From: Cryomorphaceae bacterium
GTDB lineage: Bacteria > Bacteroidota > Bacteroidia > Flavobacteriales > Schleiferiaceae
NCBI GenBank assembly: GCA_020832345.1
Contig: JAFIEY010000197.1
Location: 1 to 56,916 of the forward strand
Direction: 5' to 3'
Length of the DNA: 56,916 nucleotides
Shown: in pieces, positions 8,315 to 56,916 of the stretch
How the letters are laid out: each line of letters starts with the position of its first letter
Position numbering within the stretch: position 1 is the first letter of the stretch
Notes under the pieces: generated by a model
What the model was told of the DNA's origin: nothing
Seen by the model: the letters and a program-made list of their open reading frames with translations, nothing else
The model's database searches: none
Translations under genes and position numbers: made by a program

Positions 8315-8665
8315 AACCACATAGACACATAGAGTACATAGATTTTCACATAGAGGTTATTTTAAACGCTAAAGCGTTTTGGTTTTTTAACCACAAAGGG
8401 CGCAAAGGAGGCGCAGAGCTTCGCAAAGCGGTTTTTCAAAAAAACTTATGTTTTCTATGTGCCTATGTGGTAAAAAAAGAACCACTTCGGATATCCCCAA
8501 CCACATAGACAAATAGAGTACATAGATTTTCACATAGAGGTTTTTATAAAGCGTTTTTCAACCGCAAAGGGCGCAAAGGAGGCGCAGAGTTTCGCAAAGC
8601 GTTTTTTTGAAAAAACTTATGTTTTCTATGTGCCTATGTGGTAAAAAAAGAACCACGAAGTGGTT
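8315..8665. repeat. R2 repeat block A (two units)
   Basis: Two head-to-tail units with a 184-base period (starts 8315 and 8499). Each unit has a left arm of spaced acatag words (aaccacatagacacatagag), a middle with cgcaaag words, and a right arm complementary to the left (ctatgtgcctatgtggt), so a unit can fold into a long hairpin. A short hairpin accacgaagtggt closes the block. It lies between convergent genes (map and a T9SS cargo). The 300-plus bases here hold nothing else visible. Confidence 0.9.
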
Positions 8666-8727: not shown

Positions 8728-10314
8728 CTAACGCACCCTCACCTTCACCACATACCGTTTCTCCCCCACTACCTCAATGGTATATATGCCCGCGGGCAGA
8801 CCTTGAATGGACAACAAAACATGACGCTCTTGTACCCCGGTTTCTTCCATACGGGAGCGGCGGACTTCCCGGCCTTGCATATCGCGTAAGATGATTTCGT
8901 AATTACCGGCGGCTTTTTCCAGTTTTACATTGACCTCATTTACCGCCGGATTGGGATACACCGACAACCCCGTTTCCAGCGCAGGCAACTCCTCCACCGA
9001 AAGCCAGCTATCGTGACAATGATTGGGACCAAAGCAGCCGTTACTGTCCAAGCGGAAGGCATACGCAAATTGATGGGGGTCTGTTGGGTGATTGCGGAAA
9101 GATGGTATGGTCGCTGTGCCTACACCCACAAAACCATTATCTATAGTGGGGATTACCGTTTCCGCAACAACAACATCACCTCCACTTCGCCGACCATCTT
9201 CAAAATAGGGCTCTTTCCACCAAAGACTATCGCCTTGTTCGCTTACCCGTAATACCACCGTATTATAACCTGGCAAAAAAATGGCTGCCGAAAAAACAAA
9301 ACCCCCACTTTTTACAGGTTCCAAACTTCCAGGGCCTGCTTGTTCTATATCCGGTGAACCAATAAGTTTATCAATTAAAATATTGCCATCCCAATCAAAC
9401 TTCACAAAGCGGTAATCGCCTTTCCACCACTGGTCTGTACACCAAAAACCATTGGGACCGCAATCCAAAACCCGAGAATACATGACCACTACGTTGCTGT
9501 CTTGAGCCAAGGCCAAATACGGTTGACCTCCCTGAATATTATAATTATCTCCCGGTGCCTTCTGAATATATGTTGGAAAAAAATGCTCCCAAATAATGGC
9601 TCCGGCACTATCAATTCGCGCAACATACTCATATTTATCGTTACCGACTCCCCGAATTCTTGCTGATCCCGAGATAAAAAATGTACCATCAGCTTTTGGT
9701 ATGATATCATTAATTATTCTTGCTTTATTATCAGGTTCTTCCAATACTGCCTCCCAAATTATATCAAAATTGGGCGTAATTTTTGCGATATACCCTTGTA
9801 ATGTCCAGGGGGTGGGTTGATATAAATATCCTGACAACAAAATATTGCCATCCTCTAGAGTTTTAATTTTTGACATGCTAAATCCTTCCCAACGGGTATT
9901 ACCCGAATCAGGGTAAAACTGTCGAATTAATAAAGTATCTAGTTGAGGAAAAACTTGCCATCGAATAAGATATGCCTTGTCTGGTGCATTAAAAATATCA
10001 TCTCTAACAAATGAAACAACAGTGCTGTCTGGTAAAGTAGCCATAGCTCCTCTTCGGCCCATAAAAGGATAATTAAATCTCGTAATGCTTAATGAATCAA
10101 TCACATTACCATTCTTATTTATATGATAAAGTCGTATCCCATTATTCTCTTGAAAGTAGTTGTGGTTAGAATCAAAAACATAGGAGGTATCTGGAAGTTC
10201 TGTCACTGAATTAGCCCAAAACCCTGGATACACCTCAATAAACCCGTTCTCAAATTGCGCGTGCGCAAAACTGCAAAGTATGGACAAAAATACTGTTATA
10301 TTAATAAGTTTCAT
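8728..10314 (-). CDS. Secreted protein with T9SS C-terminal sorting tail
   Basis: 528 residues. Signal peptide MKLINITVFLSILCSFAHAQ. The body holds repeated stretches of the type GNILLSGYLYQ and GFVGVGTATIP, spaced like a beta-propeller (Kelch/WD-like) of the kind common in Bacteroidota cargo proteins. The last ~85 residues are a T9SS type A sorting domain: LSVYPNPAVNEVNVKLE, a middle strand YEIILRDMQGREVRRS, and the end LPAGIYTIEVVGEKRYVV. It would be exported by Sec, then by T9SS, and attached to or released from the surface. The function of the body is unknown. Upstream is another T9SS cargo gene with a hairpin between. Confidence 0.85.
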   Translation of the reverse strand: MKLINITVFLSILCSFAHAQFENGFIEVYPGFWANSVTELPDTSYVFDSNHNYFQENNGIRLYHINKNGNVIDSLSITRFNYPFMGRRGAMATLPDSTVVSFVRDDIFNAPDKAYLIRWQVFPQLDTLLIRQFYPDSGNTRWEGFSMSKIKTLEDGNILLSGYLYQPTPWTLQGYIAKITPNFDIIWEAVLEEPDNKARIINDIIPKADGTFFISGSARIRGVGNDKYEYVARIDSAGAIIWEHFFPTYIQKAPGDNYNIQGGQPYLALAQDSNVVVMYSRVLDCGPNGFWCTDQWWKGDYRFVKFDWDGNILIDKLIGSPDIEQAGPGSLEPVKSGGFVFSAAIFLPGYNTVVLRVSEQGDSLWWKEPYFEDGRRSGGDVVVAETVIPTIDNGFVGVGTATIPSFRNHPTDPHQFAYAFRLDSNGCFGPNHCHDSWLSVEELPALETGLSVYPNPAVNEVNVKLEKAAGNYEIILRDMQGREVRRSRMEETGVQERHVLLSIQGLPAGIYTIEVVGEKRYVVKVRVR

Positions 10315-10327
10315 ATTGTATTATATA

Positions 10328-10356
10328 ATAGCACCCCGAAAATTTCGGGGTGCTAT
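10328..10356 (-). terminator. Terminator-like hairpin downstream of the 1240-codon T9SS gene
   Basis: Perfect inverted repeat with 14-base arms (atagcaccccgaaa and its complement) and a one-base loop. It lies between the stop of the gene at 10372 and the start of the gene at 10314, both on the minus strand. The following minus-strand sequence is A/T-rich but is not a pure T tract. Confidence 0.65.
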
Positions 10357-10371
10357 AAAATTAACAAATTA

Positions 10372-13300
10372 TTATTTACGTTGCTGAATTTGGAGCTTTT
10401 CCGTACCCAACAATTCGCCGTTTTCTCTGAAGAGTTTAAGCACATACATGCCTGTAGCCAATGATGGCAACTCGATGAGTTCTGCGCCTTCTACTTTGGC
10501 TTCAAAGCTGGAAGCGCATACCACCCTACCACTCATATCAAAAATTTGGTAGGTGGTTTTTCCACCAATACCGGTCGTTTGATAATGCAATGTGGTAAAA
10601 TCATTTGCCGGGTTGGGGTACAACCTTAAATGATTAGGCGATTTTTTCTCCACTTTAGCCGGATCTTGTACATTTCGCTTATGTGGCGGACTGCCCATGG
10701 GATAATAGGTGGGGTCAACCAAAAGAGAATCTTGCAATCCTTCTAAGGCAAGCATAAAGTGTGCTGTAGCTGCTGCCGCATTTTGGCTTCCACTTTCGAT
10801 GGCTTTTAGTGCTGCAATTTGCCCACTGCTCAGTGTATCATCTTTGGCAAATATAATTTCATACACTTCTTTGATGGCATCAAATTCATCTTTAAGAAAA
10901 CCATTCCCTACGGCAGGATGTTCCACCATATCGTCCAATGCTTCACTCACACCGGATAAGCCTTCTGCATGGAGCAACAACGCTTTTTGCAAATAATAAT
11001 GGGGCATATCCATCAGATCGTAAATGGCAATGGCACTATCTACGGCAGTTAATAATTCACCACTGGCGTAATCTTCGCCGAGCATGTCAATCAATTGGTT
11101 GGCCATGCGTTCAGCCTCCAATTGCTTGCCCACAATACGGGCTTGCAGTAATTGTTTGGCACCAATATAATCGGAACCGTTAAGAATATCATCAATCATA
11201 AACTGAGGCAGTGGAGGGGTGCGGTTGAGAACTTCATCCCAAACCGCCTGATTTATGTACGATTCCGGATTCTCAATAAGGATATTGCGCAAAAGAATAT
11301 CCGGAAATCCCTCTCTATGAATGATTTCTATTAAGGCTTCCTCAGATAAATATGGAGATTCAGCCATGAGGTTGATGTATAAATCATAAAATTCGGATTC
11401 GGGCGTTGTGAAAATTTCTGCGATGAGTTCCGGTGTGCTTCCTCCATCTATTAAATCCCCAAGAAAAACTCGATCGCTTTCAATTTCTTCCATTTGTACG
11501 CGCAAGGAAGCCAGATCGGAAATGGTTACTCCGCCCTGATTTAAGTTAGATGGGCAAGAAATATGTTCAGAAAAATCGACATCAGCTGGAGAATTCACCA
11601 CATCATGAATATGATCATACCTCGGCTCTACCCTTGGTTCTGAGATTGGGTCATGCGAAAAATAGATAATATCATAACTGCCGTCGGCATTGTACTCAAA
11701 ATCATAATACCCACTGGTGCTGTTGGTATGGCTAAAACGATTTCCCGCAAGCAAATGGTTGATGATTTCATTTTGTTCATTTCGCTGAATCCGTCCCTGA
11801 TATCCCGCCAGCGTATTCTGCTTGCTATTTATGGGTTCCGGAGCGTAAATATCGTACTCGCCATCCGTAAAGTCATTGCACCGCAATTGCAAGCCTTCGC
11901 GTGAATAATAATTATTACCATTATTATCCACCCCTACCCTATTGAATTCCAACGCTAGGATACCGAGATCGAGTTCTTCAAAGGTGTTTTTATAGATTTG
12001 GTCGGAGGCCGTGAGTGTATTATTAACAATTAGACCAATGGGTTCGCGAATTACACTGGGATTGGGATTGGGAATGGGAACTAGAAGTGGAGGTGGAGGC
12101 ATCACCATTGCAGAGGCAATAGTAAATAAGTTTTCCTCAATGGTAAATGACCGGGAGTTGTGCACATACAGACCATAAGGATGGTTTGACATAAATGGGC
12201 TTTCTGTATTAACACCTTCCGGAATAATCAATGTGTTTTGTGTAAAAGTCAAATTATTTGATTGATCATTGAAATACGCACCATAGAAATTATTATAAAA
12301 AGTGGTGTTATTTACCCTTATTGACTTCAAAGGATGGCTTTTTTTACTTGAGGTAATCCCTCTTTGGTAACCGGCAATTATTGAAGGAAACGGCTCCATA
12401 CACTCCGGATCATCACAAAATATATTAAGCGTGTAAGTTGCATCAATAGACACAATCGCATCTCCCCTATGTCCGTGAAAACCTTCTACATCGGTAATGG
12501 TGTTGATGAACTCACAACCGCGAATTTGGATACCGTTTACTTTATACATAGTAATACCCAGTGGTTTACTGGGAAAAGGATAATCATCATCGTGAATGAT
12601 TTTACATTTTCTAAAGTATGACAAATCATTTGCAAGGTGGGTTCCGTGATTATTATAGTACCTTAGAAACTGAGCCGTTCTTCTACAATTAATAAACTCT
12701 GTGTCCTCAGCAAAAATAATAGAACCCATGCTGGAATAATCACCCACTTCCTCAGTACCAAAGTCTCTATGAAAATTATTGAAGGCATTGTGGGCTTTTA
12801 CAATTTTAGCGTTTTTTAATTCAATCACTGCTTGATTTTGAAATGTCTGAGGAGCGCTTGAATTTCCTTGCCCATGAATCCCCTGCCAAGGCCAATAAGA
12901 ATAATATCCCTCAAGGGATGTGTTTTCAACCAACAACTTGCTTCCAGCTTCCACACTTATTCCCGGTAAAAATTTACTATCGTCAAAAATAATTTCATTG
13001 TTGTAACCACTAGAAAGATCTTGGGTTCTCAAAATACCCTGAAAATGACCCTGAAAATAAGAAGGCCCATAAATCAATCCTGGAGCAAAATCAATCCTGT
13101 TATTTACGGTAAATGTGGCATTGTCTTTTACAACAATTCTTAAAGTTGCTGCCGGTTTATCCCAGGTAGTATTTGAATTAATTTCTGCAAACATTGGAAC
13201 CAACATAAAATTATCAAAATCCAAGGTCGAGTTACTGGTTAAGCAATTATATAAATCCGCGTCATTAGCAAAATTATATCGAATTTTTCTTGCTTGCTCC

Positions 13301-14094
13301 TCCGTCAAGTTCCTTGTTAAAGTAATATTAGGATTATTTATGGTCATAATGTTTTTTAAATCAGCCACCATGTTTCCACCGGAAGTTTGACAAATAAAAT
13401 CTCCCGAATAGTTACAGTTGTTTTCTTCTTCAACAAAATACCCAATTGACCCAGGCACTAATAAATGGAAATTAGTAGGGAAAAGACCCATTTGAATGCC
13501 TAACACCCCCCCTGTTGCACCAGTTAGGATTTCTTCAACGTTAGATTGATCGGGAAAAGCAATTGATGCGAGTAAAGCAGGAATACTTTCAAAATGGATG
13601 TGAACACCATTTGAAGAAGGATAACTGAAAAATGGACCATTGGTTAAAACAAGAACTGGATCAAAAATCGCAATATTTAAGGCATTTGGAGCTATGTTTC
13701 CAGATTGATTTGTAAAATAATCATGATGTAGCTCATCTAAATAATTCAAGCCTCCATAAACCTGATGGTTTATTTGATTTAAAAAATTGATTTGTATGTC
13801 CTGATCACCGTAAATTTCCTCCACCTCGCTAATGACGTTATCAATAACTGTGGCAGGCACAGAGTTTGTATTCAAGTGTACATAATGTATTTGTACATTT
13901 ACTTCTATGATTCCGGGAATAAAGGGTACTGGCCAACGATATATATAGTTTTCTTGTAAGGCACTTTCAATTTCAGTGTCATAGGACACTCCATTACCAA
14001 TTAAACTTTGGTCATGATAGGATAAATCCTCTGCGCCTCCGCTTCCATGTGGATGAATTAAATTATTAAAATTTGATGAAGACCTTTGACTCAT
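10372..14094 (-). CDS. Large T9SS cargo protein, pseudo-M43 domain plus beta-helix; probably phase-variable
   Basis: 1240 codons from the internal ATG at 14094, which lacks a signal peptide. The same frame stays open upstream to a stop at 14197-14199 and codes a signal-peptide-like segment (FRKALCIAGSFLALFCL), but without a start codon. An ATG at 14216 (MKKFYF), just below a promoter, is out of frame by two because of an 8-bp repeat tract at 14164-14198. Domains: M43-like region (about 60-275) with the zinc motif replaced (196-206), a long right-handed beta-helix-like region (about 310-790), a helical region (860-1130), and a T9SS tail (LRLYPNPANDFTTLHY to LQIQQRK). Likely a surface or secreted protein, here in an OFF state. 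Confidence 0.8.
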   Translation of the reverse strand: MSQRSSSNFNNLIHPHGSGGAEDLSYHDQSLIGNGVSYDTEIESALQENYIYRWPVPFIPGIIEVNVQIHYVHLNTNSVPATVIDNVISEVEEIYGDQDIQINFLNQINHQVYGGLNYLDELHHDYFTNQSGNIAPNALNIAIFDPVLVLTNGPFFSYPSSNGVHIHFESIPALLASIAFPDQSNVEEILTGATGGVLGIQMGLFPTNFHLLVPGSIGYFVEEENNCNYSGDFICQTSGGNMVADLKNIMTINNPNITLTRNLTEEQARKIRYNFANDADLYNCLTSNSTLDFDNFMLVPMFAEINSNTTWDKPAATLRIVVKDNATFTVNNRIDFAPGLIYGPSYFQGHFQGILRTQDLSSGYNNEIIFDDSKFLPGISVEAGSKLLVENTSLEGYYSYWPWQGIHGQGNSSAPQTFQNQAVIELKNAKIVKAHNAFNNFHRDFGTEEVGDYSSMGSIIFAEDTEFINCRRTAQFLRYYNNHGTHLANDLSYFRKCKIIHDDDYPFPSKPLGITMYKVNGIQIRGCEFINTITDVEGFHGHRGDAIVSIDATYTLNIFCDDPECMEPFPSIIAGYQRGITSSKKSHPLKSIRVNNTTFYNNFYGAYFNDQSNNLTFTQNTLIIPEGVNTESPFMSNHPYGLYVHNSRSFTIEENLFTIASAMVMPPPPLLVPIPNPNPSVIREPIGLIVNNTLTASDQIYKNTFEELDLGILALEFNRVGVDNNGNNYYSREGLQLRCNDFTDGEYDIYAPEPINSKQNTLAGYQGRIQRNEQNEIINHLLAGNRFSHTNSTSGYYDFEYNADGSYDIIYFSHDPISEPRVEPRYDHIHDVVNSPADVDFSEHISCPSNLNQGGVTISDLASLRVQMEEIESDRVFLGDLIDGGSTPELIAEIFTTPESEFYDLYINLMAESPYLSEEALIEIIHREGFPDILLRNILIENPESYINQAVWDEVLNRTPPLPQFMIDDILNGSDYIGAKQLLQARIVGKQLEAERMANQLIDMLGEDYASGELLTAVDSAIAIYDLMDMPHYYLQKALLLHAEGLSGVSEALDDMVEHPAVGNGFLKDEFDAIKEVYEIIFAKDDTLSSGQIAALKAIESGSQNAAAATAHFMLALEGLQDSLLVDPTYYPMGSPPHKRNVQDPAKVEKKSPNHLRLYPNPANDFTTLHYQTTGIGGKTTYQIFDMSGRVVCASSFEAKVEGAELIELPSLATGMYVLKLFRENGELLGTEKLQIQQRK

Positions 14095-14163
14095 GCCTTC
14101 ATGAGGGCTAAGACAAAATAAAGCGAGGAATGAACCTGCAATGCAGAGTGCTTTCCTAAATTT

Positions 14164-14198
14164 GCTGGTGAGCTGGTGAGCTGGTGAGCTGGTGAGCT
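14164..14198 (-). repeat. 8-bp tandem repeat (4.4 units) in the 5-prime end of the T9SS cargo gene
   Basis: Four perfect units gctggtga plus gct on the plus strand. Eight is not a multiple of three, so gain or loss of one unit shifts the reading frame. The distance from the upstream ATG (14216) to the in-frame internal ATG (14094) is 122 bases; losing one unit gives 114, a multiple of three. The tract sits between the start codon and the signal-peptide coding segment, the usual place for a contingency repeat. Confidence 0.9.
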
Positions 14199-14250
14199 AA
14201 AATAAAACTTTTTCATGATTAAAAAAATTAAAAGATTAAAAAACTGTGTT

Positions 14251-14279
14251 CAAATTTAAAATATAATTTTGAAAATCAA
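14251..14279 (-). promoter_or_regulatory. Promoter of the phase-variable T9SS cargo gene
   Basis: On the minus strand TTG (14277-14279) is 18 bases from TAAATTTG (14251-14258), matching TTG-N17-23-TAnnTTTG. The start of transcription would be near 14246, about 30 bases before the ATG at 14214-14216. This supports that ATG as the true start rather than the internal one at 14094. Confidence 0.55.
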
Positions 14280-14550: not shown

Positions 14551-14758
14551 AACACTAAAGCGTTTTGTTTTTTAACCGCAAAGGAGGCGCAGAGTTTCTC
14601 AAAGCGTTTTTTCAAAAAAACTTATGTTTTCTATGTGTCTATGTGGTAAAAAAAGAACCACGAAGTGGTTTCCCCAACCACATAGACACATAGAGCACAT
14701 AGAGGTTCACATAGAAGTTATTATAAAGCGTTTTTTAACCGCAAAGGGCGCAAGGGGT
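14551..14758. repeat. R2 repeat block B (about one unit, split around the junction)
   Basis: Begins in the middle part of a unit (aacactaaagcg), runs through the right arm and accacgaagtggt hairpin (near 14658), then a new left arm (aaccacatagacacatagag) and half of the next middle part. It ends immediately before the toxin fragment's stop. The bases from 14280 to 14550 hold nothing recognised. Confidence 0.85.
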
Positions 14759-14760
14759 TT

Positions 14761-15562
14761 TTAAATTAAACTGCGTTTAACCCAATTGATAAAATCTTCT
14801 TTAATAAAAGCCCATTGTTTCTCCTGCAAACAAACAGGATCAAAGTCTTCATCAGCTTGATTAAAATTTGTGAAATTCTGAATAATTAATTCACGATCAT
14901 GTGTATATGAATACCTTTTTTTGTGCAATTCCAGCATTCTTTCAAGTGTAAACATGGAATTAAGAGCATGCAAATCCCAAAAATCTTTTTTTCTACCTAT
15001 GCGCTGTATTACATCTATCTTCATAGCAACAATTTCCTCAATACTTGCCATTCTAATTGAATCTTCAACTTTGAGTCTGCTCTAAAAAGTCTCTTTCTGC
15101 CAAAATCTTCCTTGTCGGTAGATTTTTGAATCCTCACTAACAGCTGGTTAGCTGCGGTTCAAAAATCCCCTCCGCGTCGATTTTGATTGAAATCATCCTT
15201 TTTAGAGTGGACTCAACTTTTAATTTTGAAACAAAAGCATCCGTATATTAGACATCTAACTTTATGTTTTTTTCTTTGCTTTCTCCCACAAAATACAAAC
15301 GTCCTAATGCAGGCTCAATATCAAGAAAATCAACGTATTTGAAGTGGCTTTTTAAAAACCTGTTTATGGAATTAAAATCAACACTGCCGTATGTCACATC
15401 CGTAAAAAGGTCAATATCTACAGATTTCCGATGACCAATTTGCAAGCTTAGGGCTGTTCCTCCAACCAAACGAAAGGAATTCAACGATGTTGCCGTCATA
15501 AGCCTATATAAACATTCCAGAAGAAACGGATCAACAGTATGATAATAAAGCATGTTAGTCAA
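14761..15562 (-). pseudogene. AbiEii/AbiGii-type nucleotidyltransferase toxin, disrupted by R1
   Basis: Two halves of one gene. The N-terminal half (15248-15562) carries the nucleotidyltransferase core LVGGTALSLQIGHRKSVDIDLFT. The C-terminal half (open from an ATG at 15051) carries MASIEEIVAMKIDVIQRIGRKKDFWDLH, the conserved second block. They are separated by an R1 element at 15073-15214 with 6-bp duplications; removing it restores one frame (...VSKLKVEDSIRMASIEE). A TAA at 15248-15250 also interrupts the frame (LDV-stop-YTDAF), so the gene is doubly broken. The family transfers nucleotides, in some members to tRNA, and is paired with the antitoxin upstream. It is almost certainly inactive here. 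Confidence 0.88.
15073..15214 (-). repeat. R1 palindromic element, complete copy inside toxin gene
   Basis: 142 bp, in the opposite orientation to the copy at 2908. Ends gagtctgctctaaaaag and ctttttagagtggactc. It is flanked by a perfect 6-bp duplication aacttt (15067-15072 and 15215-15220). Because the interrupted gene can be reconstructed exactly, this copy fixes the element's boundaries and target duplication length. Confidence 0.95.
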
Positions 15563-16166: not shown

Positions 16167-16800
16167 AAAGAGCGCAGAGTTTCGCAAAGCGGTTTTTCAA
16201 AAACACCTATGTTTTCTATGTGTCTATGTGGTAAAACAAAGAACCACTTCGGAGATCCCCAACCACATAGACACATAGAGCACATAGATTTTCACATAGG
16301 GGTTATTATTAAACGCTAAGCTTTTTGCGCAAAGTAGGCGCAGAGTTTCGCAGAGCGGTTTTTAAAAAAATACTTATGTTTTCTATGTGCCTATGTGGTA
16401 AAAAAAGAACCACGAAGTGGTTTCCCCAACCACATAGACACATAGAACACATAGATTTTCACATAGAAGATATTATTAAACGCTGAAGTGTTTTGTTTTT
16501 TTAACCGCAAAGAGCGAAAAGGAGCCGCAAATTTTCGCAAAGGGGTTTTTCAAAAAAACTTATGTTTTCTATGTGCCTATGTGGTAAAAAAAGAACCACT
16601 TCGGAGATCCCTAACCACATAGACACATAGACACATAGAGCACATAGAGGTTCACATAGAGTTTTTATTAAACGCTAAGGTGTTTGCTTTTTTAACCGCA
16701 AAGGGCGCAAAGGAGGCGCAGAGTTTCGCAAAGCGTTTTTTTGAAAAAACTTATGTTTTCTATGTGCCTATGTGGTTAAAGAAAGAACCACGAAGTGGTT
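16167..16800. repeat. R2 repeat block C (half a unit plus three units)
   Basis: Starts in the middle part of a unit, at the T9SS remnant, then three complete head-to-tail units of about 180 bases. The right-arm closing hairpin alternates between accacttcgg and accacgaagtggt. One left arm has an extra 9-base word (acacatagacacatagacacat near 16621), showing slippage within the arm. The block ends seven bases before the recX stop. Nothing else is seen in these 630 bases. Confidence 0.9.
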
Positions 16801-22355: not shown

Positions 22356-22962
22356 ATTAAAACGTTAAATTGTTTGCTTTTTTAACCGCAAAGGGCGCAA
22401 AGGGGACGCAGAGCTTCGCAAAGAGGTTTTTCAAAAAAAACTTATGTTTTCTATGTGCCTATGTGGTAAAATAAAGAACTACTTCGGAGATCCCCAACCA
22501 CATAGACACATAGAGCACATAGATTTTCACATAGAGTTTTTATTAAACGCTAAGGTGTTTGCTTTTTCAACCGCAAAGGGCGCAAAGGAGGCGCAGAGCT
22601 TCGCAAAGGGGTTTTTCAAAAAAAACTTATGTTTTCTATGTGTCTATGTGGTAAAAAAAGAACCGCGAAGTGGTTTCCCCAACCACATAGACACATAGAG
22701 CACATAGATTTTCACATAGAAGATAATATTAAACACTAAAGCGTTTTGTTTTTTAACCGCAAAGGAGGCGCAGAGTTTCGCAAAGGGGTTTTTCAAAAAC
22801 ACCTATGTTTTCTATGTGTCTATGTGGTAAAAAAGAACCACGAAGTGGTTTCCCCAACCACATAGACACATAGAGCACATAGATTTTCACATAGGGGTTT
22901 TCAAAAAACCCCTATGTTTTCTATGTGCCTATGTGGTAAAAGAATAAACCACGAAGTGGTTT
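22356..22962. repeat. R2 repeat block D (three units plus one hairpin-only unit)
   Basis: Head-to-tail R2 units starting in the middle part right after the M1 peptidase stop. The last unit has lost its middle: the left arm meets the right arm through cataggggttttcaaaaaacccctatg (about 22889-22915), a tight perfect hairpin. This shows that the arms are the core of R2. From 22963 to 23088 nothing is recognised. Confidence 0.9.
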
Positions 22963-56617: not shown

Positions 56618-56759
56618 GTGTCTGCTCCAAAAAGTCCCTTTCGGCCAAAATCTATCTGGTCCGTATTTATTTAAATCCTCACTAACAAATAGTTAGCTCC
56701 GTCCTGAAAATCCCATCCACGTCGATTTTTAACGAAATCATCATTTTCGGAGTGGATTC
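56618..56759 (-). repeat. R1 palindromic element, divergent subfamily, tandem copy 1
   Basis: 142 bp, differs from the main R1 sequence in the middle (ctatctggtccgtatttatt). Ends gtgtctgctccaaaaag and tttcggagtggattc. It is followed by ataatt and then a second copy. Confidence 0.88.
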
Positions 56760-56765
56760 ATAATT

Positions 56766-56907
56766 GAGTCTGCTCCAAAAAGTCCCTTTCTGCCAAAATC
56801 TATCTGGTCCGCATTTATTTAAATCATCACTAACAAATAGTTAGCTCCGTCCCGAAAATCCCATCCACGTCGATTTTTAACGAAATCATCATTTTCGGAG
56901 TGGATTC
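56766..56907 (-). repeat. R1 palindromic element, divergent subfamily, tandem copy 2
   Basis: 142 bp, nearly identical to the preceding copy. Six-base spacers ataatt lie on both sides (56760-56765 and 56908-56913), then the gag of a third copy at 56914-56916 where the window ends. The period of 148 equals element plus target-size spacer. Confidence 0.9.
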
Positions 56908-56916
56908 ATAATTGAG

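Follow-up and report, generated by a model that had tools for sequence, protein, structure and literature searches.

A frame-shifting octamer repeat as a putative phase-variation switch of a T9SS cargo gene in Flavobacteriales

Why should a gene with an intact frame of 1240 codons for a secreted protein lie out of frame with its own start codon? The question is raised by a locus on the minus strand of a 56,916-nucleotide stretch of a Cryomorphaceae genome (contig JAFIEY010000197.1, positions 1 to 56,916; hereafter the window), at which a short tandem repeat lies between the start codon and the sequence coding for the protein. A first-pass annotation, made from the letters of the window alone, had proposed that the gene encodes a phase-variable T9SS cargo that is switched OFF by this repeat. 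We examined the locus, its relatives and the repeat content of the genome with this proposal in mind.

The start codon of the proposed switched gene, at 14214..14216, was assigned from the sequence and from relatives with similar MK-type openings. On the minus strand this ATG is followed by AAA AAG TTT TAT TTT, the 35-base octamer tract at 14164..14198, a signal-peptide segment and the 1240-codon frame, in that order. The plus strand of the tract consists of four perfect GCTGGTGA units and then GCT, exactly as first annotated; in minus-strand letters, the sequence and a repeat search give a tandem of 4.4 units of AGCTCACC. With up to three mismatches allowed the tract is present as a single copy in the window, and it was recovered in 0 of 100 dinucleotide shuffles. 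The signal-peptide segment (KFRKALCIAGSFLALFCLSPHEGMSQ, 14086..14163, with a maximum 12-residue mean hydropathy of 2.41) shares its frame with the large cargo open frame (P0001, 10372..14094, 1240 residues with no stop) and not with the ATG. The frame of the ATG itself stops after 41 codons (14091..14216), its TGA overlapping an internal ATG at 14094, whereas the second frame reads KFRKALCIAGSFLALFCLSPHEG-MSQ fused to the 1240-residue ORF. The 122 bases separating the ATG at 14216-14214 from that at 14094 agree with the earlier coordinates and arithmetic. Computing the frame for seven unit numbers, from -3 to +3 relative to the assembly, we found it continuous at -1 and +2 units and broken at the other five; the assembled allele of 4.4 units is OFF. 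Hence the loss of one unit does restore a continuous frame through the signal peptide into the cargo, and the forecast that three or six units are ON and four OFF holds when full units are counted, with the further value of nine following from the period. By hydropathy, charge and alignment, a Sec signal peptide is predicted in the ON frame only; the c-region of the leader of the window gene is unusual (SPHEGMSQ).

The assignment of the product to the T9SS is borne out by a type A C-terminal sorting domain (10411..10623), which scores 41.3 and 38 bits against curated cut-offs of 27 and 23, and by the presence in the genome of SprA, the component of the T9SS translocon that was searched for (SprA_N, E 1.8e-165). 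A right-handed beta-helix region (12124..12672) matches Pfam at 19.1 bits, below the cut-off of 25.9. At the N-terminus, approximately at 13165..13995, lies a domain that is best read as M43 (pappalysin)-like with its zinc site lost, judging from alignment, profile, hhalign and a weak structure model. Its roughly 280 residues keep the M43 framework C-x-x-x-GD-x-x-C-x-T and NIM...T-x-x-Q, and the HExxHxxGxxH zinc motif is missing in all six aligned members. A profile of the family reaches HExxH proteins in genomes G348 (E 7.0e-8) and G222 (5.6e-7), both of which match Peptidase_M43 above the Pfam cut-off; the G348 protein, aligned by hhalign with a probability of 94.6 %, has HEMGHFFFLSH at the position of the zinc motif. 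Pfam gave no direct M43 match for P0001 or five relatives, and PDB sequence searches with the N-terminal part of the paralogue on contig C97 (see below) and with the family alignment found nothing. The best matches of a weak AlphaFold2 model of the domain (mean pLDDT 52) are metzincins, at Foldseek E 1e-4 and VIA Z about 10 with TM-scores below 0.5, and the same weak model matches ulilysin at E 1.4e-3. The stretch that separates the cargo gene from the following T9SS-tailed gene (8728-10314) contains a perfect inverted repeat with 13-base arms and a one-base gap (10329-10355).

Using the N-terminal domain, we searched 88 genomes of the bacterial family for homologues and obtained nine loci in seven genomes. 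A short repeat directly follows the ATG at seven of these nine loci: CGGCCAAA at three of them, and GCTCACCA, CGCATCAG, TC and C10 at one each. All seven tract periods are frame-shifting, none being a multiple of three. Besides the window gene, the set comprises its two orthologues, G003:C72 with 5.75 units of AGCGCATC and G004:C75 with 12 units of TC, both OFF, and a paralogous group in which CGGCCAAA is present in 4.5 units at G000:C97, in the genome of the window itself (OFF), in 5.25 units at G002:C21 (ON) and in 4.6 units at G004:C165 (OFF). The seventh, G009:C51, belongs to another genus and is OFF with its C10 run; in the genus of the window the repeat is found at six of six loci and in four of five genomes, the family being absent from the fifth, G001. 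At every one of the seven loci, one unit number in three keeps the frame open into a hydrophobic leader whose last residue is Q; the six OFF frames terminate after 19-42 codons. The excess of OFF states is not significant, since the chance of at most one ON in seven is about 0.26 by a hand calculation in which one state in three is ON.

The first-pass annotation had named a fixed count of four in all reads and relatives as evidence against switching; the relatives, on which this was checked, carry other units in other counts. The units AGCTCACC and AGCGCATC are identical at six of eight positions, and are thus possibly one tract rewritten by homogenisation, while the TC, C and CGGCCAAA repeats look unrelated. 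Chance, or a repeat that varies protein length, was ruled out as an explanation by the non-three periods at all seven loci together with the conserved place.

Outside this set, no repeat was found at two short homologues, G016:C29 and G030:C9, with open frames of 317 and 302 aa. Likewise, no such start repeat is seen in seven beta-helix homologues of other genera with a visible 5' end (L008-L012, L015 and L016), which indicates that the habit is local; in three of the seven an A8 or T8 run lies 67-120 bases before the frame opening. A fragment at a contig end (G000:C84:2689-3036) matches residues 888-1003 of the window protein at 62% identity and may be an additional paralogue or a disrupted copy.

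The most durable of the alternatives is an error of assembly or consensus: the gene would be expressed constitutively, its real unit number never leaving the frame, and the repeat would be no more than an odd N-terminal extension. The five repeat-bearing genomes are indeed all drafts of 170 to 310 contigs, three of them MAGs, and assemblers fail at repeats. Against this, 35 bases are, as is generally known, well inside the length of a short read; the frame is broken at six of the seven loci, spread over four of the five genomes and over octamers, a dinucleotide and a C run; and a constitutive coding extension would favour periods of three, which none of the seven loci has. We regard this alternative as very unlikely.

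A second alternative starts from the overlap of the OFF-state TGA with the ATG at 14094 (ATGA): coupled re-initiation there would yield a leaderless cytoplasmic form of the 1240-residue protein, and the tract would switch the address of the product. At the window locus an in-frame ATG does stand one base before the stop, but it sits in the c-region of the signal peptide, and in the remaining five OFF loci no in-frame ATG occurs until 59 to 266 bases past the stop, a spacing which shows that the overlap is not kept. We accordingly rejected re-initiation at the overlap, as it is not conserved in relatives, and hold a switch of address to be very unlikely.

Equally, the gene might be dead, inactivated by frameshift and heading for decay, as the broken ATG frame in the assembly and the similar breaks at five other family loci could suggest. 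Comparing the window gene with its two orthologues over 1217 and 1226 codons, we obtained pS of 0.80 and 0.75 and pN of 0.24 and 0.26. Synonymous sites between the orthologues are saturated, yet the frames of about 1,200 codons are intact and constrained; with pN so far below pS and no stop in the frame, the OFF gene is not decaying. Moreover, a break of this kind recurs at the corresponding position in relatives, among which G002:C21 is ON. Death of the gene is thus extremely unlikely. That the repeat alters mRNA structure, translation efficiency or N-terminal length, the frame being incidental, is just as hard to credit: repeats near starts can act on initiation in other species, but all seven tracts stand after the ATG with periods that shift the frame, and each of the six OFF frames stops within a few dozen codons.

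We conclude that the octamer tract very probably switches a surface or secreted protein ON and OFF at the level of translation, by slipped-strand mispairing. Support for phase variation is stronger from the relatives than from the window by itself: orthologues and a paralogue bear frame-shifting repeats, mostly of other sequence, at the same place, and the protein is under purifying selection; the proposal of the first-pass annotation is supported to this extent. Repeats at the same spot, often in different letters, point to a maintained switch and not to an accident. Three species share the CGGCCAAA array despite saturated synonymous sites (pS 0.73-0.77), where a useless tract would be expected to decay. 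Since the position is conserved in most family members while the repeat has been replaced or rewritten as octamers, a dinucleotide or a C run, switchability itself appears to be what was kept, in comparisons that involve one genome per species.

During replication, slipped-strand mispairing would add or remove 8-base units. With 3.4 or 6.4 units, by the computed frames, a ribosome starting from 14216 would cross the tract and translate the signal peptide and then the complete cargo, and the product would be exported via Sec and subsequently the T9SS; with the 4.4 units assembled the ribosome would make only a 41-residue dead-end peptide. The benefit would likely be bet-hedging of a large surface protein facing phage, predators or attachment partners. 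At 4.4 units the tract is short, and slippage may be rare.

How widespread are such repeats? In a census of 255,111 bases of the window's genome (G000), with A/T runs excluded and two all-N contigs left out, two of 148 open segments of at least 200 codons have a start repeat, namely the window gene and its paralogue, in a sample that is not independent of them, as it includes the window and the paralogue's contig C97 was picked beforehand. The wider SSR survey of this genome comprised this 255 kb sample together with a G8/C8 scan. For G000 we rejected the idea that the octamer is a genome-wide element, since GCTGGTGAGCTGGTGA and CGGCCAAACGGCCAAACGG have a single location each. In a sample of 395 genomes from the order, (CGGCCAAA)3 is limited to the three family loci, and (GCTCACCA)3 occurs in three genomes, those of the window, G005 and G035. 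In G035 it lies at two places away from gene starts, the first directly behind an open frame and the second where a contig begins; the octamer by itself is thus no marker of a switch. The G005 case (C7), from another genus, concerns a different gene, whose product has a T9SS sorting domain; here 8.25 units of the window octamer follow the ATG and the frame is ON; its protein is beta-helix-like by eye, with no match to the Pfam beta-helix.

The window has repeats of other kinds. Tandem and dispersed repeats with units of about 167-191 bases and CACATAGA and TCTATGTG motifs lie outside long ORFs at 16172-16796, 22360-22901, 8318-8342 and 14679-14719. A 148-base repeat is present in two copies at 56620-56916, and a stretch near 15070-15200, beside the switch locus, resembles it by eye.

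Poly-G runs occupy a comparable position in further genes. ATGAA followed by G9 within 12-42 bases was found at 17 places in nine of the 88 family genomes, of which 6 look OFF, 3 ON and 8 unclear; nine of the 17 precede a frame of at least 100 codons, and a signal-peptide-like leader can be seen by eye in five of the nine clear ones. The pattern gave 26 matches, with overlapping ones counted separately, against 9 for a reversed control, so that part of the set is background. In the window's genome, a beta-helix T9SS gene (G000:C225, L131, 193-2916), whose beta-helix match is above the Pfam cut-off that P0001 falls below, has G7 between the ATG and the leader and is OFF; it would be ON with G6, G9 or G12. 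Two visibly similar secreted-type genes have the run inside the leader, with G11 and OFF at C41 (L087, minus strand) versus G8 and ON at C131 (L109); the visible part of the C41 protein matches no Pfam family at E 0.01. This genome has 29 G/C runs of at least 8, three of which (C41, C73 and C131) are near the start of frames of about 500 codons or longer; the remaining runs are not followed by a frame of that length, or lie deep inside a frame or near contig ends. The gene on C73 (L095, 1370-3007) encodes a PMT_2-type membrane glycosyltransferase with C8 about 12 codons past a possible ATG, in frame, and may represent a second class of phase-variable gene. Elsewhere in the family, in other genera, poly-G runs stand ahead of long frames at G021:C9 (L164) and at G010:C24 and C27 (L160 and L173), either separating the ATG from a signal peptide or inside one; all three are OFF.

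Upstream of the window gene, 42 bases 5' of its ATG, the element TAAATTTG (14251..14258) is a motif match to the Bacteroidota -7 promoter consensus, TAnnTTTG. A -7-like motif is also present 31-50 bases 5' of the ATG at G000:C97, G002:C21, G004:C165, G005:C7 and G000:C131, and at -66 at G000:C225. It is absent within 120 bases of the ATG at G003:C72, G004:C75 and G009:C51, and from the 39 bases visible at G000:C41.

Taken with the poly-G leaders, these loci make it reasonably probable that a set of T9SS cargos, among them the degenerate-protease/beta-helix proteins, has a conserved switch position in common, located after the ATG and ahead of the signal peptide, at which the repeat is replaced or rewritten over evolution, with selection on switchability and not on sequence, and forms a slippage-based surface 'phasome' in free-living Bacteroidota.

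Phase variation by repeat slippage has mostly been described in host-adapted pathogens, for example at Haemophilus influenzae SSR contingency loci such as lic and mod; in Bacteroidota, phase variation has mostly been described as DNA inversion. At the H. influenzae loci, changes in tandem-repeat length switch genes, by frame in coding cases. In the portion of the H. influenzae study drawn on here, octanucleotide SSRs are recorded, and hmw1A/hmw2A are suggested to differ between strains in their SSR class (PMC2651432). The switching of genes by short-repeat length is the likeness to the proposed window switch; however, the octanucleotide SSRs in that portion of the study are noncoding (between cmkB and pdxS, or upstream of the hmw loci; PMC2651432), whereas the window octamer is coding, stands before a signal peptide and belongs to a Flavobacteriales T9SS cargo. 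According to the consulted part of its source, slipped-strand mispairing switches the expression of NalP of Neisseria, which is secreted and surface-exposed (PMC3796261); NalP is an autotransporter and lipoprotein, in contrast to the T9SS cargo of the window. The account of Bacteroides, in the part used, concerns invertible DNA that acts on capsules, glycan use and SusC/SusD proteins (PMC11868660), which is likewise a phase-variable Bacteroidota surface, but by site-specific inversion and not by the repeat slippage proposed here. Among the matches listed for titles and abstract openings of the open-licence literature, we found neither a repeat-switched T9SS cargo nor a conserved switch place with an exchangeable repeat. 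The mechanism is of a kind known from Haemophilus, Neisseria and others, and its T9SS-cargo setting, in Flavobacteriales known from MAGs, was not found among the matches listed in that literature.

A practical consequence is that annotation may label such genes as truncated, or start them at an internal ATG and so drop the signal peptide. For the biology of these bacteria, the loci make a sequence-level case for slippage switching of a Flavobacteriales T9SS cargo, in which the differing repeats of relatives at one spot serve as natural replicates, and whether the repeat or the switching is selected is directly testable from metagenome reads.
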